Positions 12,915-37,955 of a stretch of DNA of 64,000 bases are shown in pieces. Source of the stretch: Carposina sasakii (Eukaryota > Arthropoda > Insecta > Lepidoptera > Carposinidae); assembly GCA_014607495.2 (NCBI GenBank), contig CP053160.1, forward strand, positions 1,488,001 through 1,552,000. The letters run 5' to 3'. Position numbers and translations under genes: made by a program. Positions within the stretch are counted from its first letter, which is position 1; every line of letters begins with the position of its first letter. Under the pieces are notes generated by a model. That model worked only from the letters and a program-made list of their open reading frames with translations. It was not told where the DNA came from and ran no database searches.

Positions 12915-13660
12915 ACATGTCTGCCACAGACAAGTCTGCTAAATAACCTACACATGTCAGCTCATACTGAGCATAACATGTCTGCCACAGACAGGTCTGC
13001 TAAATAACCTACACATGTCAGCTCATACTGAGCATAACATGTCTGCCACAGACAGGTCTGCTAAATAACCTACACACGTCAGCTCATACTGAGCATAACA
13101 TGTCTGCCACAGACAGGTCTGCTAAATAACCTACACATGTCAGCTCATACTGAGCATAACATGTCTGCCACAGACAGGTCTGCTAAATAACCTACACACG
13201 TCAGCTCACACTGAGCATAACATGTCTGCCACAGACAGGTCTGCTAAATAACCCACACACGTCAGCTCATACCGAGCATAATGTGCCTGCCACAGACAAG
13301 TCCGCTAAATAACCTACACACGTCAGCTCATACTGAGCATAATGTGCCAGCCACAGAAAAGTCCGCTAAATAACCTACACACGTCAGCTCATACTGAGCA
13401 TAACATGTCTGCCACAGACAGGTCTGCTAAATAACCCACACACGTCAGCTCATACCGAGCATAATGTGCCTGCCACAGACAAGTCTGCTAAATAACCTAC
13501 ACACGTCAGCTCATACTGAGCATAACGTGTCTGCCACAGATAAGTCTGCTAAATAACCTACACACGTCAGCTCATACTGAGCATAATGTGCCTGCCACAG
13601 ACAAGTCTGCTAAATAACCTACACACGTCAGCTCATACTGAGCATAACGTGTCTGCCGCT
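12915..13660. repeat. 61-bp minisatellite, 13 copies
   Basis: The word CTGCC near the unit start recurs at 12921, 12982, 13043, 13104 and so on to 13653, twelve periods of exactly 61 bases with no net insertion or deletion. Units differ by scattered substitutions (for example 'acatgtctgcc' against 'atgtgcctgcc'). The array lies in the 3' part of the gypsy-like element, between the integrase end and the pol tail. Stops occur in the minus-strand frames, so it is not coding. Confidence 0.92.
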
Positions 13661-16869: not shown

Positions 16870-17060
16870 CGAGTTAGGACTGATATGGTTCGGGCTGATA
16901 GGCCTCCAGGGCTCCAGCGAGCCGTTGACAGGCGTGCCCGAGCGGTACTGCGCCGTGAAGTCGATGATGGGGTGTCCCCCGTCTCCCGCCACGTTCCACA
17001 GGATCAGCGCCAGGATGGTGGACGCGTGCACCGTCACGTTCACCAGCGGCGGCGGCTCCG
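16870..17060 (-). CDS. Ig/FN3 membrane protein, exon 3 (FN3, first half)
   Basis: The exon lies between acceptor GTCTTCCAG (17061 onward) and donor GGTGAGA (16864-16870). It encodes EPPPLVNVTVHASTILALIL, then the B-strand tryptophan (LWNVAGDGGHPI) and a Tyr-containing C strand (FTAQYRSG) of an FN3 domain. It starts in phase 1, fitting the single base left by exon 2, and ends in phase 0, fitting exon 4. The exon is GC-rich against its surroundings. Confidence 0.82.
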
Positions 17061-17079
17061 CTGGAAGACGAGTCATGGC

Positions 17080-17668
17080 ATTTAAGTACTTGGGCCCAGA
17101 ATACCTAGTAGTGCAGGTATAGTATTAGCTAGCACGGACATTTTACGCTCCTTAATATATACAGTGTATTCAATACACTATCAACAGTGATTGGAATGCA
17201 AAAGAGCCTATGTTTGCTTAGGTGGGCAGAAAAATTAAATTTGTTTTGGCCCTTGGAACATACCAAAAAAATATTATGGCCTTAAGGCTTCAAAAAGTTT
17301 GGAGACCCCTGGCCTAAGAGAATGGCCGAGTTCCTTAGTCGACTCTTGCTACAACCAAACCTTCTTTTCTACTAATAACATAATAAGGAACTTAGTAACA
17401 ACTGATAACCTAAACTAGCGCCACGCACCTACTTTGCTTTTCACAAAATACTTCATTTTAAAGGCGGCGCTAGTTGCTCTATGCTTGAATACAATCTATG
17501 TAATTCCATACAAAAAATGTTAGTTCCGATTTCATGCACGAGAGTTAGTCTATGATATGGACTGTAGTAACCAGCAGCCACAGGCCACAGGTAATGTATT
17601 CCAGCCTTGACCCAGCCCGTGTGTACGTTTCGAGAGCAAACACGGAACGTGGCATACTTTAATTGATA
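17080..17668. other. Intron flank left of the CACTA element
   Basis: Nothing coding is seen. At 17260-17312 a short stretch ending 'aagtttggagacccctg' looks like one end of the CAGGGGTTCCC MITE family, but its other end is not recognisable. Confidence 0.35.
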
Positions 17669-17959
17669 CACTGAGAAAAATTTAAGTATCCGACTTACTT
17701 AAAATACGTATAAAAATCGACCACTATGACGTGTGTATACCGCTACATTACGCGTACGTAGCTTATCTTACGTATCCAGCATACTGATGCATTTAATGGA
17801 GCCGCTTACGTAATTTACGAGTGGTATGATTTTCTACGTACGTACGTAAGTCGAAATCTTACTACGTATGTACGTAGTTCGCAAGTCGCTGCTGCTTGTA
17901 CAATAATGCACGATGCAGGTTACGTATTTAATACCGCAACATATGTACGTTACTGCTGC

Positions 17960-19090
17960 AGCATACATATTATACTGATGCTCGAACAGTAAAGCATGAT
18001 GTAACATACGTAAGATACTGATGCTCGAACAGTAAAGCATGATGTGACATACGTAAGATCCTGATGCTCGAACAGTAAAGCATGACCTAGCATACGTAAG
18101 ATACTTATGCTCGAACAGTAAAGCATGATGTGACATACGTACGATACTGATGCTCGAACAGTAAATCATGACGTAGCATACGTAAGATACTGATGCTCGA
18201 ACAGTAAAGCATGATGTGACATACGTACGATACTGATGCTCGAACAGTAAAGCATGACGTAGCATACGTAAGATACTGATGCTCGAACAGTAAAGCATGA
18301 CGTAGCATACGTAAGATACTGATGCTCGAACAGTAAAGCATGATGTGACATACGTACGATACTGATGCTCGAACAGTAAAGCATGACGTAGCATACGTAA
18401 GATACTGATGCTCGAACAGTAAAGCATGACGTAGCATACGTAAGATACTGATGCTCGAACAGTAAAGCATGATGTAACATACGTAAGATACTGATGCTCG
18501 AACAGTAAAGCATGATGTAGCATACGTAAGGTACTGATGCTCGAACAGTAAAGCATGATGTGACATACGTACGATACTGATGCTCGAACAGTAAAGCATG
18601 ACGTAGCATACGTAAGATACTGATGCTCGAACAGTAAAGCATGATGTGACATACGTATGATACTGATGCTCGAACAGTAAAGCATGATGTGACATACGTA
18701 CGATACTGATGCTCGAACAGTAAAGCATGACGTAGCATACGTAAGATACTGATGCTCGAACAGTAAAGCATGACGTAGCATACGTAAGATACTGATGCTC
18801 GAACAGTAAAGCATGATGTGACATACGTACGATACTGATGCTCGAACAGTAAAGCATGACGTAGCATACGTAAGATACTGATGCTCGAACAGTAAAGCAT
18901 GATGTGACATACGTATGATACTGATGCTCGAACAGTAAAACATGATGTGACATACGTACGATACTGATGCTCGAACAGTAAAGCATGATGTAGCATACGT
19001 ATGATACTGATGCTCGAACAGTAAAGCATGATGGAACATACGTACGATACTGATGTTCGAACAGTAAAGCATGATGTAGCGTACGTATGT
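17960..19090. repeat. 43-bp satellite, 26 copies
   Basis: CTGATG of each unit falls at 17975, 18018 and so on to 19050, that is 25 periods of exactly 43 bases with no net indel. The core is ATGCTCGAACAGTAAAGCAT followed by variable 'ga(c/t)gt(a/g)(g/a)catacgta'. Two alternating unit types are visible (CGTAGCATACGTAA and TGTGACATACGTAC). Long open frames (up to 439 codons) occur on the minus strand because 43 is 1 modulo 3 and the unit has no stop, so they are repeat artefacts. Confidence 0.95.
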
Positions 19091-19925
19091 ATTACTGCAG
19101 CATACGTACGCTACTGTTTCGGGGTCATTATTGCATTGCGTAGTATTTACCACTGCAGTATATTTACTGAAATTGATACAGTAAAATATGATGTAGTAAC
19201 CGTTTTTACTACAGCAACATATGTATCAGTAGTAAAGCTTTATTTTACCAGTGTCAGTATTGTACGAGTATGTATGTTGCTGAAGTAGAAATGGTTACTA
19301 CATCATATTTTACTGTATCAACTACGCATGGAGCAAAAATGCACCTGTAATGAGAAATCTAAATAAATATTATTACAGATTAATATAGAACATACACAAT
19401 GTAATAATAGAACCTACATTAATGATAAAAAATCAAATAAAAATAACAGACATCATAATTTTATTAAAGGAAATTGTTTACACTTAGGATAGATTTTTTT
19501 AAGTAACAACATAAATTATAAATGTATGTATTACCTTACCTTACTATAAAATGCAATTTTTATTGACTGAAATAGTGTTAGCAGTACTGTCAAACCTAAT
19601 GTTATTTGACCAACTTATGCTTGACAGACCGTAACACAATAGAAAGTACCTACTAACATATAAAAATGACCATTGACAAAGAAGTTGTAAACTATATGTC
19701 GAATATAATAAAGTATTTAAATTTTAATTGAATTTTGTTCAGCCCCCAAAAGACTTGTGCCCAATTGCACCAACTTGGATTTAAGTTTATTTGCGATTAG
19801 CACACGTGCTCTCCCTTTCAGTTATTGTCAAAAAGAACAAGATATCATATGTTCTATCAATCCGAGTTAATGCAAATGGATATTAACATACAATATAAAG
19901 ATAAGGCCTTCAGGGAGTAAGGAAA
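19091..19925. other. Left inner region of the CACTA element
   Basis: No gene is seen. From 19170 to 19320 'cagtaaaatatgatgtagtaac' and its inverse at 19290-19315 form an imperfect inverted repeat of about 25 bases per arm. The transposase 3' UTR presumably occupies the part just left of 19926. Confidence 0.45.
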
Positions 19926-22400
19926 TTATTCTAAGGTCCATCTAAGAGTAACATAAAGTTTTAAATTTGGCATTACAGTCATGGTGGCTGGCACAGGCGA
20001 AATAAGATCGTTATAACAATGAAAAAAGGTATCATAATTTTTTTCTTGCACTTCATATGCATAATAATGTTGATTAAAGTCTATGCAATCCAATGAAATG
20101 CATTTAAATACAACTTTTTCGTTGTTAAGCAAATAAATACTTTGAATTTTACCAAACTTTGGTAAACATGTGGATTTCAAAATATCCATAACTACAATGG
20201 ATGATAGCTCAAATCTTACACCATGTATCTTTACCCACGATAGTAAATAACAACAATTATTACCAACTATATCTGGAGGATGAAAGTTTAATTTTAGATA
20301 AGCATATTCTGATTCATTTAAACTTTTCTTTTTACCATATGTGATTGTGGTTTGTGGTTCATTTTTTAAAAAGATATCATTTAACATCAATTGGTGTTTT
20401 ATGGCTATTGTTTTACATACATTTGTTCTGTTATGCGATGCTCTGGCCACAAACTTAGATACTCGATGCTTGGCTTCAAATCTCATTGTCCAGATTTGTG
20501 TAAGGGGGCCAATTTTTTTTAACATTTCTGGATAATGTGTAAGAAAATGGAACTTTGGTTTTAAATTTGTTTTAGCTATGTGACAATAGAGCTCGTTTAA
20601 TTCACCTACTAAAAATTTTACTTGATCATAAGTATTTTCATGGATTGTGCGACTAAAAAGTTTATCTAACAATTGTCTTAATTTTATGTATAAAAACCAG
20701 ACTTCGTTTTCATCTGGGACGTTATATCCGACAATTAGCCCAAAGTAACGAACAAGAGTTAACATTTCAGATGCTGAACATTTTAACTTTATAGATGTGC
20801 CATCTTTTGATACAGCATTGCATGGTTTTGATGTTGAATCAGGACCATAATTAAAATACCGTATTCTTGAATTCAAATTATCAAAAGAAATGACCATTTG
20901 AGTCTGGATTAGATTTTGTATAATAAATGACATCACATATCGACAAGCCCCCTCTAGGTAATCATGTAAAACATCTACTGCAACATTTTCAAATAAGTTA
21001 AAACCATCTAAAGCAAGCCACGAACATTTTTCCTTAACACCAGTCTCGTAAATGTTGTCCATAATTAAATCATTTTCATAAATAACATTATTTCTTAGCA
21101 GTGTGCTGTTTTCATAAAACAAAGTTTTGATTTCTTCTTTGTTAGCACTACAAATTCTACACGGCCGATTTGCAGAAAAACTTTCAACAAAACCTAATAT
21201 AGCATTTAAACCTAAATTGTCGCCTGTAACAGCCGCTACATAAAATCTAATAACTCCTTCGTATTGGTCAGTTTTAATATATATGCCATTTATTCTTAAA
21301 TCATTGAGGGTATCAAAAACTTTTTGAAACATTATGTTGTTTCCTATTCTTGTTCTGTCTGATGAGTGAAAAATAGCTAGTAATAAAATATTTTGCAAAA
21401 GTGAGACATAGTGAGGAGGAAGACATGGCACCGAGACATAAACAGCTCCAAGTTTGTGTATTCCAGCGTGGCTTCCTAACGCATTGCCAATCTCGAAATC
21501 ATCGAAGTAGATGATTAACGGTAAAATCATTATATTATTATTCTCCACAGAATCTTTAATCATTTTGTTCCATACTGAACCCTGGACAATATTCTCTACA
21601 CCAAAAAAGTTGTTTTGTACAGTATGCAAGTATTCTAAGGTATCCTTCATATAATTTTTTGGTGAAAAAAGAAGTTCTAAATTCCTCTTTAAAGGAATCA
21701 CCTGTTCAGTACAATTAATTTGTATTAACAATGACCCAGCTGCTGTTTTTTTTGTCTCATTTCGTTGACCTACAACTACTTCATGAGGTTCGGCATAAGT
21801 TCCTAAAAGACTAAAAAATTTCAATCGTTTATGTTCAGAATCTAATTTCTTAAAAGCATCCCTGTAAGCATTCAATGTCTTTTCTACAGCGTTTTGAACA
21901 AATTCATGATTTTGTTTTTGTGATACTATATTTTCATTTAAGTATTGTAGCATAATATGTTCTGTTTGAGAGTGAAATTTTTTAAGACTTTCTACAAGTA
22001 CTTGCACAATATTACGTGGAACAGCTGGGTTAGCATATAGAGTCGATACCAAATTTGCAGCATGATGGACAAAAATATTGACGTTTTTTTTAGTAGTTAC
22101 TGGTGTGGGTATAGCATTATTTATTTTAAAAGTTTTAATGGGTGATAAAAGTAAATTTGGAATATTGGAATCTGAAACAGCATTATCATTATTTGATTGA
22201 AGTGAGAATGACGGTGACGACCCATGATCTCTAAGCAAGTGCTTTTTAAAAGATGCAGATGACAAATAATGACGATAACATGCTTGTTCCCCACACTGAA
22301 ATCCTGAAAATCTAACAGTTGATTTACAAAAAGTTTGTATGTGAGTTATAAGTAAAGTTGCAGATGATATTTCTTGCTTACAAAAATAGCATGTGAACAT
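19926..22400 (-). CDS. CACTA (EnSpm) superfamily transposase, 824 aa
   Basis: This single-exon frame is uninterrupted from ATG (22398-22400) to the stop. Two zinc fingers open the protein: C4, C7, H20, C25, then C36, C41, H54, H59. The catalytic region shows YFDDFEIGNALGSHAGIHK (Asp300/301), AAVTGDNLGLN (Asp394), a CRIC pair (414-417), DVLHDYLEG (476-484) and WTMRFEAKH (Glu642), which matches in order the D-D-E core and the HDxLEG/F-E-x-K-H blocks of EnSpm-type transposases. It should cut at the CACTG ends and integrate the element. The start lies two bases past the stop of the upstream SAM-domain gene, so both may share one transcript. I see no damage and regard it as potentially active. Confidence 0.88.
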   Translation of the reverse strand: MFTCYFCKQEISSATLLITHIQTFCKSTVRFSGFQCGEQACYRHYLSSASFKKHLLRDHGSSPSFSLQSNNDNAVSDSNIPNLLLSPIKTFKINNAIPTPVTTKKNVNIFVHHAANLVSTLYANPAVPRNIVQVLVESLKKFHSQTEHIMLQYLNENIVSQKQNHEFVQNAVEKTLNAYRDAFKKLDSEHKRLKFFSLLGTYAEPHEVVVGQRNETKKTAAGSLLIQINCTEQVIPLKRNLELLFSPKNYMKDTLEYLHTVQNNFFGVENIVQGSVWNKMIKDSVENNNIMILPLIIYFDDFEIGNALGSHAGIHKLGAVYVSVPCLPPHYVSLLQNILLLAIFHSSDRTRIGNNIMFQKVFDTLNDLRINGIYIKTDQYEGVIRFYVAAVTGDNLGLNAILGFVESFSANRPCRICSANKEEIKTLFYENSTLLRNNVIYENDLIMDNIYETGVKEKCSWLALDGFNLFENVAVDVLHDYLEGACRYVMSFIIQNLIQTQMVISFDNLNSRIRYFNYGPDSTSKPCNAVSKDGTSIKLKCSASEMLTLVRYFGLIVGYNVPDENEVWFLYIKLRQLLDKLFSRTIHENTYDQVKFLVGELNELYCHIAKTNLKPKFHFLTHYPEMLKKIGPLTQIWTMRFEAKHRVSKFVARASHNRTNVCKTIAIKHQLMLNDIFLKNEPQTTITYGKKKSLNESEYAYLKLNFHPPDIVGNNCCYLLSWVKIHGVRFELSSIVVMDILKSTCLPKFGKIQSIYLLNNEKVVFKCISLDCIDFNQHYYAYEVQEKNYDTFFHCYNDLISPVPATMTVMPNLKLYVTLRWTLE

Positions 22401-22402
22401 GT

Positions 22403-25400
22403 TTAATTAATTAATTGGAGATCTGACAATAGAGTATTTACAGCCTGTGTGGGTCTGTCAAATACTGTTTTAATGTTATAGCAGCCTAACTGTAAAAACA
22501 GCCAAATATCTTCAGATTCCTCTGGGTAACAAGCACTTGTTGCGAGAAATATTTTGAAAGCACAATCTACTGCTGTTATAAGTTTTGTTAACCGGTAAAG
22601 TGTATCATTAATAACAACATAAACTGCTTTAACATCAACTACTGACAGACCAACAAAAATTACAAAGGGCTGGACTGTACGTCCCAGCCTTAGCAGGTGC
22701 TCCTTTTTAGTTATGATTTTATTTGTAACTTCAGCTTCAGAAGTGGCTTGCATAATATAACCATCACAGACTTCCGCTCGTGAAGGCTTCCAAATGGGTT
22801 TATTTTTCTGCTTGCGTGCAGGTGAAATGTTTATAACATAAGATAGTAGCATTAAAGCAACATTGGTGTAAGTCTCGGGTTCATCTTCTAAAAAAAAAAT
22901 GTATTAAGTTATTTGTAAAAACTAGGATATTATGTATTATAATAACAACACTGTATAAACTCAAACCTTACCCTTAATAAGTCCTATTATATCAATTATT
23001 TTAGATTTGACTTCCTTGTCTCTGATCTTTTGTAATTTTAATTTAGCATATTTAACAATATCTTCTTTTTTTAGGGTAATTGTGGAAAATAGGTTGTTTT
23101 CTTTTCCTGGATACATACGATTAAAATCTGTCAGAAGCTGAAAAAAAATGATATTATTAGAGGTTTTTGAACTACATAAATTATCACAACACCTTTAAAA
23201 CACAACACATTAAAATGATAAGTTTATGAGGAAGTCATAGGCGGCAGCTAATATTATTGTTGAATATGGCCTACCTATATATTAAACTATCATTTAGCCA
23301 AGACACACCTTGTAGATTATGACTTATTATAAGTGTGAAGATTGTGTTCAAAAACTTAATAAATGTGTTGCAAAGAAAGCCAACTTTACTTACCAATGAA
23401 TATCCCTCAGGTTGTTTTAAGGCTGGAAAATCCTTGAAATAATCAATAATTTCACCTGCGGCAGAGCGTTTTAGGCGTTGGTCTGCAGTTTCTGCCCACT
23501 TGTCTTGAACCTCTTGCCATGGATCCACATTGTTTTTTAACCACGACAAAATATTTTCTTTTACCAGATCTGCAATTATTTTATTTTATTGATTAGTTTA
23601 TCAATAAAAAACAAGTTAAGTAAAATTCTGTGCTTTGAAATTACATACCACATTCTAGAGAGTCAATGTCATCTTCATTTATAGTTGAGGTTGATCTTGA
23701 TAGAGAGGATTGAGAAGATGAACGACTAATCCCAGGCAGCTCTCCACTTGTACGTAACTTCCTCCTTCGGCTTATGTAACTCTCATATAATTTTCCACTT
23801 GCATTTTTTTTAGCTAATCTATTGGTAGCCGATAAATATGGAGAATAATATACCACAACGCTTTCTTTATGAAATATTTTAACAATTTGGATAGCAAGTT
23901 TGGAAAACTCTTCACTAGTAATTTTTTTTGCTGGATTGTTTTGCAGTTTGTTTTCTATAAGCAGCTGGCTCAATTTCCTTCTAGAACTCTCGGACAGTAA
24001 TCCTCCTTCTCCTTCTTTAAGTATTGCTCTGCCATTTAAACTTTCCTGTATAAATAATTAATATTGTTTTCACTTAGGTTAAGGTAATGAAACATTATAC
24101 ACAAATAACAAATATTGTTTTGAAATTTAAAATCACTGGCAAGTATATCCACCCATTTAAGTTTCATAATGTTTTAAATAATATTAAAAAGAGAAAATAT
24201 TTGTATGTTTGTTTGTAAAGATTAAACCAGCATCTGTTACATTCACCAAATAAAATATGGCCTAAATACTATGAGAAAACAATATTAGGAATTTGCAACG
24301 AATGCATTATCTCCACTATACCTACCACTTCTAGAAGAAAATAAACTAATAACAATCTATCTACTCATTAACTACAAGCATTATGTTAATAACTGATTCT
24401 TACTTACCTTCTTCTTCATATACAGAGATAGTGCTGCAAATTTAGTTTGACTTGCAACATCCTACCCCAATAGGTAACACACAAACCTGTGATTGGTTTC
24501 ATGGCACAGCATTTGTAACGTATTTGCATCATACTACTAGCAAAGAATAAATAGATAACAGAAGTAACCACTTATCTACATAGGTATTTTGCCAATTATA
24601 ATAAGCACAAACTTAACTACACAATATTTTGTCAATAATCATACAGTAATATATGTATTTTATATATAAGTTACTAATAGTTTTAAACTACAAATTGTAT
24701 GTACTATGTAATGAAAATAGAAGTTACACTTAGTATTTTTGATACCTGCAAAACAAATCAAACATTAGAGTGAATAACTAAAATATAACATTATACCAAA
24801 ACCACAAACATGATTTGTACCTTGATAAAACTTTTTATTCCAGCAGGAAGCATGGTTTGTAAGACATACACTAAATATGCTTGCTAAGTGCAAGGCTTGC
24901 ACAGGCAATAGGTACATTTGTTGAAGATAACTTTAAAAAAGATTGGTCAACTTAGTCCTAAAGTTCTCTGTATACAAAGGATACCTAATTGAGAATTGAG
25001 TCTTATAAAGTGACTACATAGCCAATATAAAAATTTACTTACACTATCTCCAGAGCTCTCAGCTGAGGTTAATGTTATATCAGAATCTGTGTCTTCTATT
25101 TCTGATAGGATGTCATCAGTATTGTCCACCAACTAGAAATATTATATTAGGCTTATAAAATGACATTATTTAAAATACCTATTTACTTAAAGTACATTAA
25201 GTATGAGAAGACAGGCTGATAATGGTAATATTGAATTGCTCATATAAATTTAAGCCCCATCCCAAAGATTATTCATAAAATTTAACCAATAAAATTGTGA
25301 TTATGTACTTAATTTTGCTAATTAAGTATGTACATACTGTGTTTGAGATCTCATCAGTCTTCAGTTTTTGTGTTTCAAGGTATTTTTTAAACTTGAGCCG

Positions 25401-26327
25401 GAGACCAACTTTTGGTATTATTTCTTTTAGTTCCTCAGACCCTAACAGCAACGCTGCTTCAAAATCAATAGCATTGTCTGCAAAAACATCTAGAATTAGG
25501 TGCTATTTATTTAACAAAAAAAGAAACACTATGTTAACTATAGGGACTAAAAAATATTAATAATGATCTCATCTATACATACCTATAATAAATCTGTAAC
25601 TCAAGTTTTTCTGTACATTGGAGATATGGCAGTAAAAAAAATTATGTGGCCTTTTGAGAGCTAATAGAAGCCAAAACGATACTTTTTAGAATTTTTGTCT
25701 GTGTGTATGTCTGTCTGTCTGTATGTTTGTTCGCGCATCACCCAAAAAATTACTGGATCAAATTGAATACGGTTTTCACTATTTTATAGTAGGTCTAACT
25801 TAAAAACTGGTTTATGTTTTATCTCAATGTGACACTTTTTTCTGTAGTTCGCGCGGACGGAGTCGCGGGCGTCCGCTAGTCAAAAATAAATTAGCAACAC
25901 GTGCTTTATAATTTCAATGAAAATCAAGACAGTGAAAAGCAATATATGTAATGCCTTGTACATATTTGTTTAGAACAAACAGCACTGCCTATGTACGTAC
26001 AGGGGGCGAACACAAACTTACTGATATCAACGCATACCTTGTGCAATGCAGGAATAAAAGTCTCAAATCATCAGATCAATCAGAACTCAAGAAATAAATT
26101 CCACCCAATAGGTAGGTACTTACCGGCAAAAATGCTTATGAGCTTACCCAATCCATGTGAATTTTATATACCTATCGTCCATGACGCCGCTTGCAGTTTG
26201 TTTAAACTTGCTAGTTGCACGTGGTGGGTGACGAAACTCAAAGAAATAAATTCAGACTCAATAGGTACTTACCCGCGAAAATGCTAATAAGCTCCCCCAA
26301 TCCCAGGGAATTTAATATGTCCTCCAT
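22403..26327 (-). CDS. SAM-domain accessory protein of the CACTA element, 7 exons, 502 aa
   Basis: Exons (high to low): 26327-26273, 25477-25338, 25132-25043, 24045-23649, 23569-23394, 23137-22972, 22887-22403. Every intron is GT-AG and all phases fit, giving 503 codons including the stop. Exons 1-2 encode a sterile alpha motif: MEDILNSLGLGELISIFAD continued by NAIDFEAALLLGSEELKEII and PKVGLRLKFKKYLE. Exon 3 is acidic and serine-rich; exon 4 is basic with RSSSQSSLSRSTS; exons 5-7 resemble the second protein I recall in related animal EnSpm-like elements. SAM domains usually mediate self-association, so a role in assembling the transposition complex is inferred. The start is the only ATG before the SAM domain and has a strong donor 55 bases on. 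Exon 1 has a decayed duplicate just upstream. Confidence 0.82.
25685..25880 (+). mobile_element. Helitron-like 3' end fragment in intron 1 of the SAM gene
   Basis: The fragment runs from 'tctgtctgtctgtatgtttg' to GTCGCGGGCGTCCGCTAGT. GCGGAC and GTCCGC near the end can form a hairpin a few bases before CTAG, followed by T, as for a Helitron 3' end. It is the same family as 6043-6204. An RTE-like origin is the alternative. Confidence 0.45.
26124..26182 (-). pseudogene. Decayed duplicate of SAM-gene exon 1
   Basis: This resembles exon 1 (26273-26327) from 'gccgcttgca' upstream of the ATG to the GGTAAGTACC donor. It has an ATG and an intact donor but an internal insertion and an in-frame TAA (MDDRYIKFTWIG then stop). 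The duplication includes the immediate 5' flank, so a promoter may have been duplicated with it. Confidence 0.65.
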
Positions 26328-26339
26328 GGCGCCGCTTGC

Positions 26340-28590
26340 ACAAATCTCAATAAATCCGATAAATCGATAACTAAACACCAGACACGCAGCTTTGTTGCAC
26401 GCAGCTTAGAATTATTTTTTTTTGTTTTCTAAAGTGTGTTACCAACTCTAAAAAAAGATTTATCCCTAAACATATGTGAAAACCCCCTAAAATCGCTTAA
26501 ATTACTTGAAAATTCCCCTAAAAATTCTTCTATCACCACGACAATAATAAATTCACAAATAAGGAGATTTGGTGCTACCAACTCAAAAAAAAGTACTCTC
26601 TTCTCCAGTCATTAGAGTAGTTGAAATATAATTTCACTAAATATTACCTAATTCGAGTCGCTAGGTGTACAAATAATTGGCTACTTTGGAGTATTCCCAT
26701 ACTTTTGCTATATGAACAGTCACAAAACCCCTAAAAATACCCCTATACCCCTAAAAGTCCGAAAAAAAAACCCATCCCACTTACTTTCCCCCTAAATCTG
26801 GGGGGAAAACTAGTTGGGAACCGTGCAAGCCGAATAATAATAATTATGTTCGATAGTCAGGGTGTCCTATCCAGGTCATGCATTTCCGGAGATCAAGTTT
26901 TAATTTTCCCTTTAAGATATGTTCTCGTACAATTTACCCCAAATTAATTTTTTATCCAATATGAACCTTTTGCGAAAAAATCATTTGTCCTTGTATTTTA
27001 AAATAAATGGCGTATTTCTGCAGTGCTGGACATAGTTGGTTATATTTTATTGATTTATTTAATGTTTGCAATTAATTTAATTTTTATTTTTAAATTACTA
27101 ACATAGACTGTAAAGTGTATTACTAACTTAATATGGATGGACATCTGAAATAAAATTAATTATTATTATTATTATAACAAATTTGACAGTCACCAAAAAC
27201 AAAATACAGTATTCACTTATATTACCTTTATTAGCCTAAGCAAATTAGTAAAATCAGATTAAATAATTCGTGTAGTTTCGCACCAAAAACTAAAAAAAAA
27301 CATTGTTCCTACGTTGTGTACCTGAATTTTTAATAACATCTATTATTTTACTTTCTTTATAATTAAGGACACATAATTAAGAACATTTTTGTTTATATTG
27401 TTTTATAATTTTTAACAATAAGGGTTTATTGTTGAATTATTAAAATAACATTATATAAAAGTTATTAGGTTAAATATTACCAAAAAGCATAAATGTGTTT
27501 TTTTTCTTTAATCTGTTCATTATTTTGTTTGAAGTTTAGGTAATTTGTAATAAAAATCAATAAGCTATAAGTACTGCATTAATTAAACTGTCAGAGGCAA
27601 GCAGGGTGTCAGAAAAAGCTGGATAAGCCTGATGATCGACCTATCCTCCTAGGCAAAGTTGCATCCTTTACTTACATACATCTTTACCGACATTTAAGTC
27701 CTTGAAATTTAGAAAAATTGTGTATATTATAAAGGTTAGGTAAATAAGGCCAGGTATGACAAGCCATAAAGTTAATCTTCTATCTAAAACATTTCATGTC
27801 ATAATAATAAATAGAACCATGATACGTGAAAAAAAAGTTAAAATACGTGCAGAGTTGCAGCAGTTCACAGTACTAAAAGTCCCCGAGGGTGAGGGGTGAG
27901 CTAACGAGAGGAGAGGAGAGGGGATAAAGACCTTTTTTAGTATTTTTTTGTATATATTACGTAAACCAATAAGAATATCACGACAATAGGATAGTTCCAG
28001 TTTTTTATTTTAGTATGTAGTCGAAAGATCCATCAATAATAGAAACATTAGTGAAAGAACAATCTTTTTATCACAAAAACTTTCCGAGATATTTCAATAT
28101 CAATTGCACATTGCATTCCCAAAAACGCTTCATACTAAAACGCGGCACGGTCTGACGTTATGACTTTGCTTGTATGGATAAATAATAATAATTTTGTTCG
28201 ATAGCTATGTTAAAAGTTGCGTTTACGATAATAGTTTCATAACAAAAGTAGCTTTAAATAACATGGTTTATTCAATGATAGGAATTATTATTTTTAAATA
28301 ATTTTATACTTTTAAAATGGACTCGCCCATGCACTTTTTAATGATCATCAAGTAATCTATTTAAAAAAACGTTCGCACATCTTTCTTGTTTTATTTCATA
28401 TTATGCTAAAGCCTTTAAGCCTGTTATTTTTAACATATCTAACACCAGGCAGCTACCCTATTACTTATTACATGCATTACATATACATTAGGTAGGTACA
28501 TAAATTAGTTACTTATTTTTTTCTTCCAATAATGTTTATTTTTAATGTAGAATCAATGGTTTATGAGCTACGGGGTGATTAAGTGAGCTG
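26340..28590. other. Interior of the CACTA element without gene
   Basis: The right part must include the promoter of the SAM-domain gene, but no core promoter element stands out. At 27100-27180 'gaaataaaattaattattattattatta' looks like the 3' tail of an old retroelement. Otherwise nothing is recognised. Confidence 0.4.
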
Positions 28591-28594
28591 ATAA

Positions 28595-28972
28595 AAGTAA
28601 AAAACCGGCCAAGTGCGAGTCGGACTCGCGCACGAAGGGTTCCGTATCATTAAAAACGGCAAAAAATCACGTTTGTTGTATGGGAGCCCCCTTAGATATT
28701 TATTTTATTTTATTTTTAGTATTTCATATTATAGCAGCAATAGAAATACATCATCTGTGAAAATTTCAACTGTCTAGCTCTCACGGTTCAAGAGATCGAG
28801 CAAAAAACGGCAAAAAAACACGTTTGTTGTATGGGAGCCCCCCTTAGATTTGCATGGAATTTTAATTTTATTTGTTGTTATAGCGGCACTAGAAATACAT
28901 CATCTGTGAAAATTTCAACTCTCTAGCTATCACGGTCCCGTTCGGAACCCTTCGGGTACGGAACCCTAAAAA
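28595..28972. repeat. Common lepidopteran interspersed repeat
   Basis: It begins 'aaccggccaagtgcgagtc' and ends 'gtacggaaccctaaaaa'. I recall this arrangement from many moth and butterfly genomes. An internal segment, 'acgtttgttgtatgggagcc' through 'catctgtgaaaatttcaact', is present twice in tandem (about 28670-28780 and 28815-28925). No coding capacity. Confidence 0.7.
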
Positions 28973-29379
28973 GACAACCAACAGATAAAACAAGTCTATG
29001 CAGATACTGTAGTATTTTAGAATCAGAAAAACCCTTGTTGCGACAAAAGAAATAAATATTATGACTACAATTTTTTTTAATGTGTTCAGAAAATATTATA
29101 GGTATATTTCTCTCCAAAATTTCGTCAAAAAAATATGTTCCCAACATTTTTCCCACAGATTTGTTTTCCTATATTTTTCCCTAATTTAGGGAGAAACTCC
29201 CCAATATGGAGACCCTGGTTCGATTCGTTCGTGGTTGGAGCTTATTGTGTAGGGTAAGAGGGATTTAGATTCGATTCGATGCTTGTGTGTATCGATTAAA
29301 TACTATCCGTTTGATATTTATATCGGTACAATACGAGTAGCATTAGATCCGTTGACGGGTTGACGGAATATTCATGCAC

Positions 29380-29650
29380 TTGCATTCATTATAAGTAGGC
29401 GGTATACTTATAAAACGTTGTAGCTACGTGTTATCATAATCCAACAATATTAAATAAGTAGCCACTCTCCTGCTGACACACGCTCACTCACTACTTACAT
29501 AAGAAACGTAGACGGTAGGTACCATGACATGTAGGTAAATATACTGTGTCATTATAAGTAGGCGGTACCTATACCTCCTTATGAGAGGACGTTGTAGCTA
29601 CGTATCATAAGTATCCAACAGCATTAAATAAGTGTCTCGATTTATGTATC
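29380..29650. repeat. Diverged outlying units of the 149-bp satellite
   Basis: Two aged units carry the landmarks of the main array: 'tcattataagtaggcggta', 'acgttgtagctacgt', 'gacacacgctcac' and 'aaacgtagacggta'. They are in the same orientation as the left half of the main array and are separated from it by a later insertion. Confidence 0.7.
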
Positions 29651-29749
29651 GATCGATATAACAGCATTCGATCCGTTGGCGGGTCAATACTCGTTCACGC
29701 AGGAAAAAAAACAAAAAAATCTATGATGTACCTAGCTAAATATGAACTA

Positions 29750-30915
29750 GGGATGTTCATGTAAAAAAAAATATCGATATTTTTTTCGATATAATATATC
29801 GTAGTGTTATATCGATGCCTTGCGATATATCGAACAAACATATCGATATTTTGAAAATATCGTTATATTTGTTTGATAACGGTAATAAACAAAACAGACA
29901 ATTAATTATCACAGTTTGCTTCTTCTATACAATTTATAAAAGCTGTTTTATAAAATGCATACATTCATAATATCGTTATACACACTTAACGGTATTTATA
30001 TTTCGTAAACTATATTAAACAAAACAGACAACTTTTATAGGTTATATTTCACTGAAAACGAAACCAACAAAACAAGTGAGTGATCGATCATAAACACCAC
30101 AGATTATAAAAGTTTTGCTACTAGTACTGCCCTCGCGAAGAGCGCCTATCTCATGTCTGCGTTTCGTTATTGCAAAGGCTAGTTTTCTATAATCCGGGGA
30201 TTTTCGTTTTATTTTTACTCAAATTGTAGTCCAATCAACGGGGAAATTTAATATATGTAGACCCCAACATTAATTCCTCTGTTGCTAAAACTTTGCAGGA
30301 TGATAAAGTTAAGTTAATAGATTACGATTGATAAAATATCTAGGATTTTTACGATTTAGAACTGTGTTTTTTTTACTTTAACAAGAAAATTACGTTTAGA
30401 TCGCTACGGAAAATTTCTCTGTCCAAAATTCCTTCAGTATATGTCAGGATATATTAATAAGCATATATATGTAATATAATCTAGGAATATTTTGATATCG
30501 GAGAGCCTGAAATTTCGAATAATCAATTTTTTCTATAATTTTCTTAGAAAAAATCTTCCGTCCATTTAATTTTTTTTGTATGTGTTGATTTGCTTTGATG
30601 TATCGTTTAACACAACTATCTAGGAAATTTTCTTTTCAGAGCATAGTTTTTTGAGCTATTAAAAAATTCTAAATCGAATAAATCCTAGATAGTTTGTTAA
30701 TCGTAATCTATTAACTTTACTTTATCATCCTGCAAAATTTCAGCAACGGAGGAATTGATGTCAGGGTTAAACCCCCCATTGATTGGACTATTGACTATGT
30801 TGCAAATTTAAAGGAATAAGTCTTAGAGAACAAGTAGATTGTATAAAGAAAAAAAAATGTAATGTGTCACGATATATCGGATGAAATATATCGATATTAC
30901 ATTCGATACTAGTGT
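29750..30915. mobile_element. Foldback-like insertion with TATCGATA-rich ends
   Basis: Both ends are dense in TATCGAT and CGATATAT words (29780-29860, 30870-30900). Inside, 30222-30350 and 30655-30795 form a long imperfect inverted repeat with landmarks 'gcaggatgataaagt' and 'tagattacgatt' on both arms. No open frame of interest. I could not fix termini or a target duplication, so the limits are approximate. Confidence 0.55.
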
Positions 30916-31689
30916 TTTTTTCGAATTTGGAAACGAATTTTCGAGTCCTTAATCTCCTACACAAATCTTCATTTTTTTATTTCCACGAGCTTTGACATTG
31001 AATTTTGAAAAGAATTGTGGAGTCCTAAATCTACTACACACAAATTCTGTCGCTTACCATCTCCCTTAGCTGCAATTTCTTTCATCATCTACTGAGCCAT
31101 TTGCCTCGTTACCACTATGAATGAAATTCTATTTAATATGAACCTAGTTACTTATACAAAGGAAAAAACACTAAGCCAAAATGTTTAATAATACCTAATC
31201 ATTAATAATACTAGCTCTACAATAGGGTCCGATACCTAATTCCGTTTTACATAGGTGAACGAGAAAATATTTCATTTCTAATCGCTTCATGTCAAACGAA
31301 AACGTAGGTACGAAGGTACGAAGAGGTAGGTAGGTACGCAGCACGTGCCATACCTACTTATACATTGTCAGAACAAATAATAGTGGCCGCTATTTTGAAC
31401 TTTTAAATAGATATCCGGATTGCTACCAAAATCGTTATTTAACAATGTCCACGATTCTCAAACATGTAGGTAACCTATTTCAGAATGCACATAGGTAATA
31501 CCTAAGTGGCCGCTATATGATTTTCTTTTTACATTAATGGGCGGATTGGTTTTAAAATCGATATGTGACGGTTTCCAAACACTTCAGGTTAAACGTCTAG
31601 AATCTGGATGCAAAAAGTGATTGCCCCATTTGGAATTTTGTAGTTTGATTATTATTGAATTTGATAGTATTAAATATTATTATTAAACG

Positions 31690-34225
31690 TTGAAGCTACG
31701 CGTCTTAAGTATTTAACGCCATTATTTAAGACAGACGCTCACCCCTTACGTAAAAAATGTAGACGGGGTCATGACGTGAAAATATACTGTGTCATTATAA
31801 GTATGTGATTTACTTAAATAAACATGTAGCGTACGTACCTTAAGTATCCAACGCTATTCTCTAAGCAATCAGCTTTCTGACACACGCTTACGTAAAAAAC
31901 GTAGACGGTACCATGACATGTAAATATACTGTGTCATTATAAGTATGTAGTCTACTTATATAAACGTTGTAGCTTACGTATCTAAGTATCCAACGTCGTT
32001 ATGAAAATAGTCAACCTCCTGACATACGCTCACCCCTTACGTAAAAAACGTAGGCGGTACCATGAGATGTAAATATAGTGTGTCATTATAAGTATGTGGT
32101 CTACTTATATAACCGTTGTAGCTTACGTATATAAGTATCCAACGTCGTTATGAAAATAGTCAACCTCCTGACACACGCTCACCCCTTACGTAAAAAACGT
32201 AGACGGTACCATGACATGTAAATATACTGTGTCATTATAAGTATGTAGTCTACTTATATAAACGTTGTAGCTTACGTATCTAAGTATCCAACGTCGTTAT
32301 GAAAATAGTCAACCTCCTGACACACGCTCACCCCATACGTAAAAAACGTAGGCGGTCCCATGCCATGTAAATATACTGTGTCATTATAAGTATGTAGGCT
32401 ACTTATTTAAACGTTGTAGCTTACGTATCTAAGTATCCAACGTCGTTATGAAAATAGTCAACCTTTTGACACACGCTCACCCCTTACGTAAAAAACGTAG
32501 ACGGTACCATGACATATAAATATACTGTGTCATTATAAGTATGTAAATGTAGCTACGTATCTTAAGTATTTAACACCATTATTTAAGAAGTCAACTTACT
32601 CATACACATTCACATTTAAAAAAATGTAAGCGTGTATCAGGAAGTTGACTACTTTCATAATAGCGTTAGATACTTGAGATATGTCGCCATAACGTTTATA
32701 TCAGTAAATCACATACTTGATAATGACACAGTATATTTACATATCATGGTACCGCCTACGTTTTTTACGTAAGGGGTGAGCGTGTGTCAGGAGGTTGACT
32801 ATTTTCATAACGACGTTGGATACTTAGATACGTAAGCTACAGCGTTTATATAAGTAGACTATATACTTATAATGACACAGTATATTTACATGTCATGGTA
32901 CCGCCTACGTTTTTTACGTATGGGATGAGCGTGTGTCAGGAGGTTGACTATTTTCATCACGACGTTAGATACTTAGATACGTAAGCTACAACGTTTATAT
33001 AAGTAGACTACATACTTATAATGACACAGTATATTTACATGTCATGGTATCGCCTACGTTTTTTACGTATGGGATGAGCGTGTGTCGGGAGGTTGACTAT
33101 TTTCATAACGATGTTGGATACTTAGATACGTAAGCTACAACGTTTATATAAGTAGACTACATACTTATAATGACACAGTATATTTACATATCATGGTACC
33201 GCCTACGTTTCTTACGTACGGGATGAGCGTGTGTCAGGAGGTTGACTATTTTCATAACGACGTTGGATACTTAGATACGTAAGCCACAACGTTTATATAA
33301 GTAGACTACATACTTATAATGACACAGTATATTTACATGTCATGGTACCGCCTACGTTTTTTACGTAAGGGGTGAGCGTGTGTCAGGAGGTTGACTATTT
33401 TCATAACGACGTTGGATACTTAGATACGTAAGCTACAGCGTTTATATAAGTAGACTACATACTTATAATGACACAGTATATTTACATATCATGGTACCGC
33501 CTACGTTTTTTACGTATGGGATGAGCGTGTGTCAGGAGGTTGACTATTTTCATAACGACGTTGGATACTTAGATACGTAAGCCACAACGTTTATATAAGT
33601 AGACTACATACTTATAATGACACAGTATATTTACATGTCATGGTACCGCCTACGTTTTTTACGTAAGGGGTGAGCGTGTGTCAGGAGGTTGACTATTTTC
33701 ATAACGACGTTGGATACTTAGATACGTAAGCTACAGCGTTTATATAAGTAGACTACATACTTATAATGACACAGTATATTTACATATCATGGTACCGCCT
33801 ACGTTTTTTACGTAAGGGGTGAGCGTGGGTCAGGAGGTTGACTATTTTCATAACGACGTTGGATACTTAGATACGTAAGCTACAACGTTTATATAAGTAG
33901 ACTACATACTTATAATGACACAGTATATTTACATTTCATGGTACCGCCTACGTTTTTTAAGTAAGGGGTGGGCGTGTGTCAGGAGGTTGACTATTTTCAT
34001 AACGACGTTAGATACTTAGATACGTAAGCTACAACGTTTATATAAGTAGACTACATACTTATAATGACACAGTATATGTACATGTCATGGTACCTACCTT
34101 CTAAGTTTTTTACGTATGAGGTAGGCGTGTGTCAGGAGATTGACTACTTTCATAATGGCGTTGGATACGTAGCCACAATGTTCACATAAGTAGACCACAT
34201 ACTTACAATGACTAGGTAAAGAATA
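31690..34225. repeat. 149-bp satellite in a head-to-head inverted array
   Basis: GTGTCATTATAAG recurs in forward orientation at 31789, 31931, 32080, 32229, 32378 and 32527. Its inverse occurs at 32716, 32866, 33015 and then every 149 bases to 34058, with a last unit at 34202. So about 6 forward units meet 11 inverted units at a centre near 32620. Each unit has two TACGTA sites ('cttacgtatc', 'ccttacgtaaaaaacg'). No coding function; a 68-codon frame at its right edge is incidental. Confidence 0.93.
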
Positions 34226-34852
34226 CGTAATCGGTATACACTTGTAAGTAAGCGCAATTCGAATAGCCATCATGTTTCTATTTTTTATGTATACTATCAT
34301 AGTTCGGAATCATTATGCCCTATACATAATGTACTTAGAAAGAGTGATTATAAGCACCTAAAAATCTTTCATTATACTAAAACATCTGGTACATTAAGTA
34401 AGTATCCAGGAACGTTATGTCACTAGACAGAGTCGGTATAACGATTTCGCTCTAAATATTGACGTGATACGTTCTGAAATATACAGAATTCTGACATAAT
34501 GTTTCTAAATACTTATATTACTTACGCTGAAGTCGTATTTAACGGTACAGTGTACGTATAATGTTGGGGTTTACTTAAACTAAATATGTGGCACCATTAA
34601 CGGCATACGTATTTTGTAAGGGTTCCGGATCCTTAAAATCCAGATGTGACATACTTAATAACGATGCAGTACCCAGATACGTAGCTCGGAGGCATTATCC
34701 TTACAGAGCACGCTGTCGCATACTGCTTCGACAGTATGCCGTTTCTTTGTAAGTATGGCTCTTACATTTTACGTTTGAAATATACGTGGTAAGTAGCTTG
34801 CTGCAATACCATTACAATTTTGGTCTCCGTAAGTAACAAATTTTTCTCAGTG
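34226..34852. repeat. Right subterminal region and end of the CACTA element
   Basis: Short words such as 'acatactt', 'tacgta' and 'cttac' are frequent but no regular period remains. The end 34838-34852 is the inverted copy of the left CACTGAGAAAAATTT terminus. Confidence 0.6.
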
Positions 34853-34854
34853 TA

Positions 34855-36320
34855 TTTTATCACTATTCCACTTTCAGACTTATTAGCTTAGAAAAGTCCA
34901 AGAACCATCAGCATCGAGTGCCTAAGTACAGTCTTGTGCTCATGCGGGGCTTCACATATCTCGTCCGCGTAAACTTTACAATTCCTATTTTTTCCCATCG
35001 TTTCGATGGGAAAACCAGTTCTCCCCTACACTCTTCAAGGAAATAATCCGAATAGTTTCGGATTGCGTTGTTTTCACTCAAGCAGTCAATAATGGAAGAG
35101 TTTCAATAAATTGACAGAATAAAACACAAATTTTGTAGTAATTTAATCCCTTTCCTGAAAATAATGATAATGTAATAACTATTCTAACTGCAAAGATATA
35201 AAAATATAAGCAATGAAATGTTTGTTTCGGTCACGGTTCGGCTAATTGAACAAATGGCGCATTAATTTGGATTGGTCCTGCTCCTTTAGTAAATTAATTT
35301 GTTCCACTTTTTATTGTGCCAATATCAATCTAACGGACTGCTCCCATGGCCTTTTGGAATAAACGATATTACACTGCACGTTGTGAAATGGTCGAGGGAT
35401 TTATTGGTTCGTTTTCGATTTAGAAATACAAACTAGCAACATGCTTTTACAAGCTTTTAGACAATTTTTATGAGAATCCGAGATTATTTTTCATACATAG
35501 GACATTTTTCAACTACCTACATATGAAATTACATTCATACAACTAGAAGACTTTGTCATTTACAACGATAGTCATGCCGTGAGAATAATCCTTGAATAGT
35601 GTACAGATAAACACTTGGTTCAATGTTTTTATTTGTAGTCTTTGAACTTTACAAACTAAAAATTGTATTTTGATACAAAATACAAGTATGTTTATTTTAT
35701 ACATATTCTAAACTTTCAATGATTTATGTTGGGTTGTATATCTTAACCAAGTTTGAGCAGCATGTAATATCTGGTTTTTTTCAGCGTTGTAGAAAATAAA
35801 ACCTAATTTTGGCGACATGTAACGCTAAACGTGGCTATAGGACGTCCTTCGTAATCCTGCACTTCTGGGTACCCTATTTCGAGAAAACAATGGACTGTCT
35901 GTACGTGTACAATGTATGTAAGTAAAATTAAGCGCCGGCAATCAAACTGACTTTACAGATCAAGCAAAGAGAACATAAACGTAACTAACGATTGTCTCCT
36001 GCATTCGTTCACACGTGTCGTAATAATAAAATCGCCTGCATTTACCGCAAGATCAGCACCAGCATACATTGACCCGTCGCTGAGATGGTAAACACGGGGA
36101 GCGCCATAATCAGGGGTCAGTGTATAGTGGGCGCGGCGTAATGACCGTCATTAGCCGGCCTTGGCTGTGCCGCGGTGTCGTCTTCAGGTACGGTGGGATG
36201 TGTTATAGCAATTTGTTTACAACTGCATGAGAAATAACATGCTTGTTATATAAGAAAAGAGCTGTAGGCACATACATACTTCGTTTTTCCTGCAATCCAC
36301 GAGTTAGTAGGTACATAATA
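34855..36320. other. Intron sequence without gene
   Basis: This lies between the CACTA element and the CR1-like element in the intron after the Ig domain. I see no exon, repeat or RNA gene that I can support. Confidence 0.4.
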
Positions 36321-36322
36321 AA

Positions 36323-37955
36323 TTGCACATGTTCGAGACTGAGGTCCGTAATATCGATTTAAACGATATGTTAATGTGCAAGATAATATTAGGGGATTAC
36401 AATGAACTCTGTCTGTTGAAAGTCACCGACGACATTCGTCAGGCTATGGACAACTCTGTTGAAGCTACAATCCTGACTCTGTTGGATTTTAGCAGTGCAT
36501 TTAACTGTGTCGACTTTGACATTTTACTGGGCACTCTTGGCTCTCTCAACGTATCTCCTCAGGTAATAACGTGGTTCGATTCTTATCTTAAGGGCCGGTT
36601 GCAGTGTATACGCTCGGACGAGATGGCATCTGACTGGTGCGAGCTTACTGCAGGTGTGCCTCAGGGTGGCGTACTCTCGCCTCTCCTGTTTTCTATCTTC
36701 ATCAATTCTGTAGCTGATGTGGTGTCATCCAGTTTCCATCTCTATGCAGATGATCTGCAGTTATATCATCACTTTGATATTGTAGATCTTGATTCGGCCA
36801 CTGCTCTGATGAACCAAGACTTGGAAAAACTTTATAACTGGGCACAGTCATTTGGTCTTGTTGTCAATCCCAGTAAATCCCAGGCAATGATTATAGCCAG
36901 TAGGCACCTGCATGGCTTATTAGGTCAGTCCGTCATACCGCAACTATACTATAATGGGACTGCTATTCATTATACGGACAAAGCTAAAAATCTTGGGGTT
37001 ATCTTTGACAATAATCTCTCCTGGTCATTTCAGGTCAACGAGGTAAGTAGGAAGGTGCATTCTGCTTTTCATGCTCTTAAACGACTTCAGAACTTTCTCC
37101 CCTTCAAAACAAAAATCTCTCTGACCCAATCACTTCTTCTTCCCTTGCTAGACTATGCTGATGTTTGCTATCTTGATGCCAATGAGGAGCTGCTCAATAA
37201 ACTGGAACGACTCCAGAATCTGGGTATCCGTTACATATATGGTTTACGCAAATATGATCACGTTTCTCAATTTCGTAAAGAGCTAAGATGGCTCCCAATC
37301 AGACTTCGCCGGAATGCGCACATTTTAACTCTTTTATTTAAAATTCTTTATGATCAATCCTCTCCCCTGTATTTACGTGAAAGATTTGAGTATCTCTTCT
37401 CAAGAGACCATCCTTTGAGGTCTAATACAGCTTCCTTACTAAAAACTCCTCGTCACAATTCAGTTGCTTTTAACTTCTCTTTCACTGTCTATGCGGTAAA
37501 GCTATGGAACTCACTGCCTCACTCTGTGAGAGACTGTCCATCAGTTGATGTTTTTAGGAAAAGATTGAAGGTCCATTATTTATCTCTCCCATCTTCTTGA
37601 TAAATAAATAAATAAAATAAAAATAATTACATTTGATGTTATTTTTATCCTTTAGTTTGTATACTATTTATCTATGCTTATCTATGTTTATGCGTTTTAT
37701 TTAGGTATTTATGTTTATGTAGTCTATTTAGATGTTTTTGTTTATTTTAGGTTTATGTCTTTTCTTTTATTTAATTATTTAGTTTATTGGTCTGTTTGTG
37801 TGCACACATACCTACCTCTTATGTTAATTTCTCTTTCACGGTTGGTTTGCTGGAAGAAATCTCTTTTAGAGATAAGCACGCCTTTGTACATTTTCTTTGT
37901 CATAAACTTTATTTGTGAAAACTTTACTGTGTACAATAAAGCATAATAATAATAA
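36323..37955 (+). mobile_element. 5'-truncated CR1-group non-LTR retrotransposon
   Basis: An uninterrupted 425-codon frame (36323-37600) carries a reverse transcriptase from just before the first catalytic block: LLDFSSAFN, then GVPQGGVLSPLLF and the catalytic YADD at 36743-36754. The C-terminus (DYADVCY, LWNSLPHSVRDCP) matches CR1/L2-type proteins. The endonuclease and N-terminal RT are absent. A 3' UTR of about 350 bases ends in (ATA)4-5, a typical 3' tail of this group. The lack of stops suggests a fairly recent insertion. It lies antisense to the Ig/FN3 gene. Confidence 0.88.

Follow-up and report, generated by a model that had tools for sequence, protein, structure and literature searches.

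The question raised by this locus is whether a 17-kb segment bounded by short inverted repeats moves as a single unit and whether it can still do so. The window, which here means the whole 64,000-nucleotide stretch that was analysed, comes from contig CP053160.1 of the moth Carposina sasakii (assembly GCA_014607495.2, positions 1,488,001 to 1,552,000), and within it perfect 15-bp inverted ends enclose 17,184 bp with a transposase gene and a second gene (Table 1). The element very probably belongs, as a full-length and possibly autonomous member, to a very young, low-copy family of giant cut-and-paste DNA transposons in the CMC (CACTA/EnSpm-Mirage-Chapaev) lineage. Recent activity of the family is well supported, and we infer that it may be active at present.

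Ends of the element and target site duplication

The first-pass annotation, made from the sequence of the window, had described 15-base perfect inverted repeats beginning with CACTG, and both were seen. When up to three mismatches were allowed, the 15-mer gave seven matches in the window against a shuffle mean of 4.95, and the two ends were the only perfect ones. The termini CACTG...CAGTG are present in all nine complete copies found in the genome, each of which is flanked by a 2-bp target site duplication (TSD): TA in seven copies, CA in C18b and TT in C26b. A duplication of 2-3 bp had been named as the one to look for; the nine copies settle on 2 bp, and none of them matches over 3 bp (0/9). 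From the dinucleotide frequencies of the window, nine 2-bp matches would arise by chance with a probability of ~5e-11, and at least seven TA with ~3e-6.

The joined flanks of the nine copies were also compared with a part of the genome sequence in search of empty sites, and matches spanning the insertion point were found for C18b alone. One match (L032) is 79% identical over 71 columns and unbroken for ~10 bases on each side, and the other (L027) is 74% identical over 222 columns through the insertion point, with a mismatch beside that point and, two bases beyond it, a gap of 7 bp; both have a single CA. The empty-site comparison proposed earlier was made on related repeats instead of alleles, and paralogous repeats show a single-CA empty site for one copy of the nine.

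Copies across the genome

The genome searched for copies comprises 399 Mb in 31 contigs. The perfect 15-mer occurs 11+11 times and its reversed control 1+0 times, whereas one mismatch gave 73+66 against 43+43; because the control rises to this level, perfect matches alone are informative by themselves. Eighteen of the 22 perfect 15-mers form nine convergent pairs, 15.0-23.7 kb apart, so that the absence of any other copy with both ends, named in advance as grounds for giving up the element, was not encountered: nine copies, including that of the window, have both. Among the four unpaired perfect 15-mers, that at C14:7091672 is the genuine left end of a remnant, for which no right end was seen in the 20 kb taken, which includes a run of 197 N. 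The other three (C11:8084430, C14:12827062 and C26:2996478) were considered as element ends and taken as chance matches, with no match in the 45 bases inside the repeat and none among the end matches.

Genome searches, which score the best candidates only, were made with both end regions. The 300-bp left end returned the ten giant copies only, without miniature derivatives, and the 560-bp right end returned nine complete matches and one further right end. This further right end (C9:9055162-9058616) has one base of the terminal inverted repeat (TIR) changed and lies in two pieces ~3 kb apart; its left end is not among the left-end matches. The copies vary in size through insertions of 4.1 and 2.2 kb in C15, 0.5 and 0.6 kb in C18a and 0.8 kb in C9, and through several kb inserted in the right part of C8; array lengths vary among the copies as well.

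Divergence of the copies

Divergence was measured in blocks of 8,571 alignment columns, outside the arrays and outside the transposase part that is deleted in four copies. In these blocks, the nine copies differ pairwise by 7 to 33 substitutions, with Kimura two-parameter (K2P) distances of 0.0008 to 0.0039 (0.08-0.39%), values that gene conversion could lower. BLAST identities across long stretches are lower (96.9-99.9%) because insertions, deletions and array differences are counted. The lepidopteran mutation rate is ~2.9e-9 per site per generation, at which the divergence would represent roughly 1e5 to 7e5 generations. Among sites present in at least seven of the nine copies, all 14 substitutions common to two or more copies fall within C9, C11a, C13b and C26b (11 in all four), and the remaining 62 are private, giving a star-like pattern outside this deletion group. 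Every complete copy has private changes.

The transposase

The window had been said to hold an intact EnSpm transposase. Its frame is indeed intact, being open from stop to stop for 826 codons (19926-22406, minus strand) and encoding 824 amino acids from the ATG; the EnSpm label fits less well than assignment to the CMC lineage, as Transposase_21 (tnp2, PF02992) misses the window protein. This profile matches four of 58 aligned family members at E<=0.01, with a best score of 25.9 bits against a cut-off of 28.6. The 58 sequences are the window transposase and 57 of 120 listed relatives (131 were found), obtained from 5.8 billion proteins by scoring the 7,996 candidates that share most words. 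Most listed relatives are unnamed, and the named ones come from fish and from insects (Scirpophaga, Diatraea, Photinus, psyllids, a hoverfly, ants, a wasp and an aphid), with one cluster also carrying the name of a ferret. The best relative among the scored candidates is 59% identical to the window transposase.

In the alignment, the candidate catalytic residues D299, D393 and E641 are invariant, as is a zinc motif between D393 and E641 formed by C413, C416, H617 and H621 (alignment numbering; one is added when counting from Met). Structure prediction assigns a RAG1/Transib fold to model residues 109-681, at ~10-13% identity, and the C-terminus is predicted to be BAH-like. A profile search of Protein Data Bank (PDB) sequences with the transposase alignment recovered mostly zinc-finger proteins over the N-terminal ~60 residues, and RAG1 was not among the 60 best of 131 matches; the link to RAG1 therefore rests on the fold. 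The candidate catalytic and zinc residues are spaced much as in mouse RAG1. Apart from the low identity, the element differs from RAG1/Transib in its C2H2-like N-terminus, its BAH-like C-terminus as predicted, and its 2-bp TSD, that of RAG1/Transib being 5 bp.

The second gene

Gene 2 lies on the same strand and is modelled with seven exons joined at GT-AG sites, encoding 502 amino acids and ending 2 nt before the transposase ATG. This model was chosen because of its canonical splice-site sequence and its unbroken SAM-like reading, and under it the second gene, described as intact at first pass, is open in the window copy. Searches that scored 7,996 and 7,995 candidates sharing most words found six related proteins, and 11 with a profile, from Scirpophaga, Spodoptera and unnamed records; among moth relatives, the SAM_1 scores are 25.6 (P0129), 22.3 (P0121) and 19.5 bits (P0122).

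The same gene order recurs in a second, CMC-type transposase family at C13:9385063-9387519 (L035, L036), which is 39% identical and has 827 codons open. Immediately upstream is a gene-2 relative (tblastn E 6e-19 and 2e-16); the end of its last matched exon and the start of the transposase are at most ~0.1 kb apart. Terminal repeats were sought in 10 kb and none was clearly found; the family may therefore be an old element or a domesticated gene.

Terminal arrays and the TACGTA motif

Both ends of the element carry subterminal arrays of unlike units that share one motif. The left 43-bp array has 24-34 anchor words per copy across the ten copies, and the two right 149-bp arrays are inverted relative to each other, with 659-nt arms that are 96% complementary. 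A transcript through these right arrays (31730-34172) could form long double-stranded RNA. Of the 88 TACGTA sites in the window, 76 are inside the element: its left 1.75 kb holds 37, the part beyond 29.3 kb holds 36 and the stretch between them three. Outside the arrays, ten sites fall in the left 303 bp, where 1000 shuffles average 1.1 and never reach ten, and four fall in the right 680 bp, where the shuffles average 0.7 and 2/1000 reach four. With the first 1.75 kb and last 3.2 kb of each copy counted as ends, seven of nine complete copies have 4 to 7 middle sites and at least 65 at the ends. The exceptions are C8 and C18b, whose 16 and 19 middle sites are probably explained by an insert in the right array and by longer arrays. 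By analogy with TNPA in maize, for which subterminal repeats serve as arrays of binding sites (PMC2613891), the TACGTA-rich arrays are probably binding sites.

Open and broken copies

Ten copies were examined for open genes, the C9:9055162 remnant being left out. Both genes are open in two of them, the window copy and C18:10767107, whose transposases are 99% identical, and gene 2 is open under the window exon model in three (window, C15 and C18b). The transposase is broken in C8 (seven stops on read-through), C18a, C15 and C14, and its central part is absent in C9, C11a, C13b and C26b. These last four have a common deletion junction (window positions 20777 to 22419, with an 8-bp overlap) that also removes the end of gene 2, and they share further gene-2 damage. 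They sit at four sites with different flanks; therefore, a deletion copy moved after losing its genes, and proteins made elsewhere would have moved it in trans. The description of a recently active giant transposon with undamaged genes holds for the window copy, one of nine both-ended copies that are 0.08-0.39% apart in the compared blocks. C8 and C18a carry a 1-bp gap at one and the same transposase position (19929-22400), perhaps because one of them derives from a copy that was already broken, or because a single-base run slipped twice.

Several observations weigh against the reading of the window copy as a possibly autonomous CMC transposon with the mechanism proposed below. Alternative splice choices in gene 2, which is an exon model, also stay open. 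The SAM_1 match of gene 2 (E 0.0011, 19.8 bits) lies below the Pfam cut-off of 23, and the fold prediction for its relative P0121, made from six sequences, gave a pLDDT of 39 and was unusable. At E<=0.01, no Pfam family matches the window transposase; its DDE residues were assigned by position and spacing because the structure tools gave no residue-by-residue superposition, and D475 and D479 are other invariant acidic residues in the alignment. The two open transposases differ by seven nonsynonymous and two synonymous changes and therefore show no sign of selection between them, and TACGTA counts within the arrays are inflated by array copying.

Origin and present state of the family

The end searches brought up no older relics, and the only other transposase matched is 39% alike, which suggests a recent arrival of the family, possibly horizontal. 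A horizontal transfer followed by a burst, in which one founder spread to about ten sites, all while giant, is a tentative proposal that we hold at somewhat below even chances. It would account for the near-identity of all left- and right-end matches, for the 21 transposase matches, which are the same copies save for the one family just 39% alike, and for the private nature of all substitutions outside the deletion group. However, a near-identical element was not found elsewhere (the best protein among the 7,996 scored candidates being the 59% relative), and 56 pattern matches in viral contigs yielded no confirmed relative. Moreover, a quiet native low-copy family that reawakened, its old copies having been lost, would look the same, and the genome search is limited to the best-scoring candidates.

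It is about equally conceivable, again short of an even chance, that the family is now dead or silenced, so that a past burst of about ten copies has left it with mostly broken genes and with two open copies that are silent. That only two of the ten examined copies have both genes open, that private changes have accumulated in every complete copy and that the two open transposases are without a sign of constraint all agree with this view, and the 659-nt inverted arrays could give double-stranded RNA if transcribed. The complete copies are, however, less than 0.4% apart in the compared blocks, and two keep open genes, which speaks against this view. The idea that the element is not mobile as a unit, its ends belonging to separate short elements or its copies being segmental duplications, could appeal to the size range and to the one left and one right end without a found partner, and was rejected as having a negligible chance, since the two ends keep their order in all nine complete copies, which have different flanks and a 2-bp duplication each, a related empty site exists for one, and insertions, one common deletion and array length account for the length differences.

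Proposed mechanism of transposition

In the mechanism proposed for this young CMC-lineage transposon, the transposase would pair the two ends, cut at CACTG and reinsert the element with a 2-bp stagger, preferring TA. Catalysis would be carried out by the RAG1/Transib-type DDE core, with D300, D394 and E642 as candidates and C414, C417, H618 and H622 as the putative zinc site (numbered from Met). The TACGTA motifs crowded in both ends may serve as binding sites for the transposase, through its C2H2 part, or for the SAM-like partner, which would have the role of TNPA in maize Spm/En, marking the ends and bringing them together across 17 kb. As gene 2 and the transposase stand in tandem, 2 nt apart, they are probably expressed from one common pre-mRNA, and proteins from open copies could act in trans on the deletion copies. 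The most far-reaching combination is a RAG1-fold giant animal transposon that is chromatin-aware through its own C-terminal BAH-like histone reader, whose SAM-like partner coats the TACGTA arrays and pairs the ends over 17 kb, and which arrived horizontally and multiplied in a burst no more than a few hundred thousand generations ago; taken as a whole, this combination is unlikely.

Relationship to known transposons

The element appears to be a CACTG-ended, 2-bp-duplication variant of the CMC lineage rather than a plant-type EnSpm, because its target duplication is 2 bp, against 3 bp in plant CACTA elements. The CMC/CMCT features examined (CA..TG termini, TSD size, C(2)C/H(3)H motif and the fold, as predicted by the model) all agree. 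The CMCT clade is defined by C(2)C plus H(3-4)H motifs and, including fungal ESTA, has mostly CA..TG termini and TSDs of 2-5 bp, as here; ESTA also makes TA duplications, whereas its families are fungal and carry a TET/JBP gene, the domain scan here covering the two main proteins only (PMC12730594). Plant CACTA/EnSpm elements, such as maize Spm/En and the 20.5-kb soybean Tgmt*, resemble the element in their CACT-type ends, giant size, subterminal repeats (present here too), a transposase with a second DNA-binding product, and trans-acting proteins that move deletion derivatives; Tgmt* differs in its 3-bp duplication, seen in none of the nine copies here, which have 2 bp throughout (PMC2613891). 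Gene 2 is SAM-like and is a TNPA-like candidate by position only. The TRC elements (SmTRC1 of Schistosoma, and those of Aedes and Tribolium) are likewise CACTA-related elements of animals with a 2-bp TSD, alternatively spliced products and truncated derivatives, whereas their TIRs begin with CCC instead of CACTG and the Aedes element measures 9.2 kb against 15.0-23.7 kb here (PMC1636069). The red alga Chondrus has enlarged En/Spm families of 16-20 kb, in the same size class and superfamily; they differ in host and in having 4-5 open reading frames (cited in PMC6431247), in contrast to the two genes found here, where arrays, introns and other noncoding DNA make up much of the length.

A giant lepidopteran CACTA family was not apparent from titles or abstract starts in the literature searches made, and a search for BAH domain, transposase and CACTA together found nothing within that search. 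Rfam gave no match at gathering score within 17000-35500.

Large size is generally held to hinder cut-and-paste transposition, and here an element of 15-24 kb is found at about ten sites, in copies that have hardly diverged. They form a natural experiment on the pairing of distant ends, with two genes, unlike-unit arrays sharing one motif, and deletion copies apparently moved in trans. The RAG recombinase uses a histone reader, the PHD of RAG2; the predicted RAG1/Transib fold and BAH-like domain, if confirmed, would parallel it and make the independent gain of histone readers by transposases testable.

Table 1. Parts of the element in the window (window positions) and complete copies in the genome (contig and length)
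Feature	Position	Strand	Remarks
Left TSD copy, TA, 2 bp	17667..17668	n/a	flank comparison of nine complete copies
Left TIR	17669..17683	+	CACTGAGAAAAATTT; pattern search of window and genome
Left terminal region outside array	17669..17971		10 TACGTA in 303 bp; first 290 bp identical in 9/9 complete copies
Left subterminal array, 43-bp unit	17972..19087		26 copies by TRF
Transposase, one exon, 824 aa	19926..22400	-	ATG 22400-22398, stop within range; C2H2-like N-terminal part, predicted RAG1/Transib-type core, predicted BAH-like C-terminal domain
Gene 2 exon 7 (model)	22403..22887	-	stop TAA 2 nt before transposase ATG
Gene 2 exon 6 (model)	22972..23137	-	
Gene 2 exon 5 (model)	23394..23569	-	
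Gene 2 exon 4 (model)	23649..24045	-	
Gene 2 exon 3 (model)	25043..25132	-	
Gene 2 exon 2 (model)	25338..25477	-	SAM-like domain, second part
Gene 2 exon 1 (model)	26273..26327	-	ATG; SAM-like domain, first part
Right subterminal array, 149-bp unit	31730..32545	-	5.5 copies by TRF; inverted relative to next array
Right subterminal array, 149-bp unit	32629..34172	+	10.3 copies by TRF
Right terminal region outside arrays	34173..34852		last 560 bp 99.5-100% identical in nine complete copies
Right TIR	34838..34852	-	pattern search of window and genome
Right TSD copy, TA, 2 bp	34853..34854	n/a	flank comparison of nine complete copies
Complete copy	C8		23,668 bp
Complete copy	C9		16,041 bp
Complete copy	C11		15,050 bp
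Complete copy, window	C13		17,184 bp
Complete copy, second	C13		14,990 bp
Complete copy	C15		23,070 bp
Complete copies, two	C18		17,982 and 18,401 bp
Complete copy	C26		15,055 bp

Neighbouring features

On the left of the element, a 784-codon frame at 10283-12637 (minus strand) has no Pfam match at E<=0.01, and a tandem array of a 61-bp unit occupies 12915-13657 (~12 copies, 94% matching). A reverse transcriptase fragment (RVT_1, E 1.6e-23) lies just beyond the element at 36311-37600, and a frame at 54263-54979 matches the exosome component RRP40 (S1 domain, E 4.2e-32) and is probably a normal host gene.

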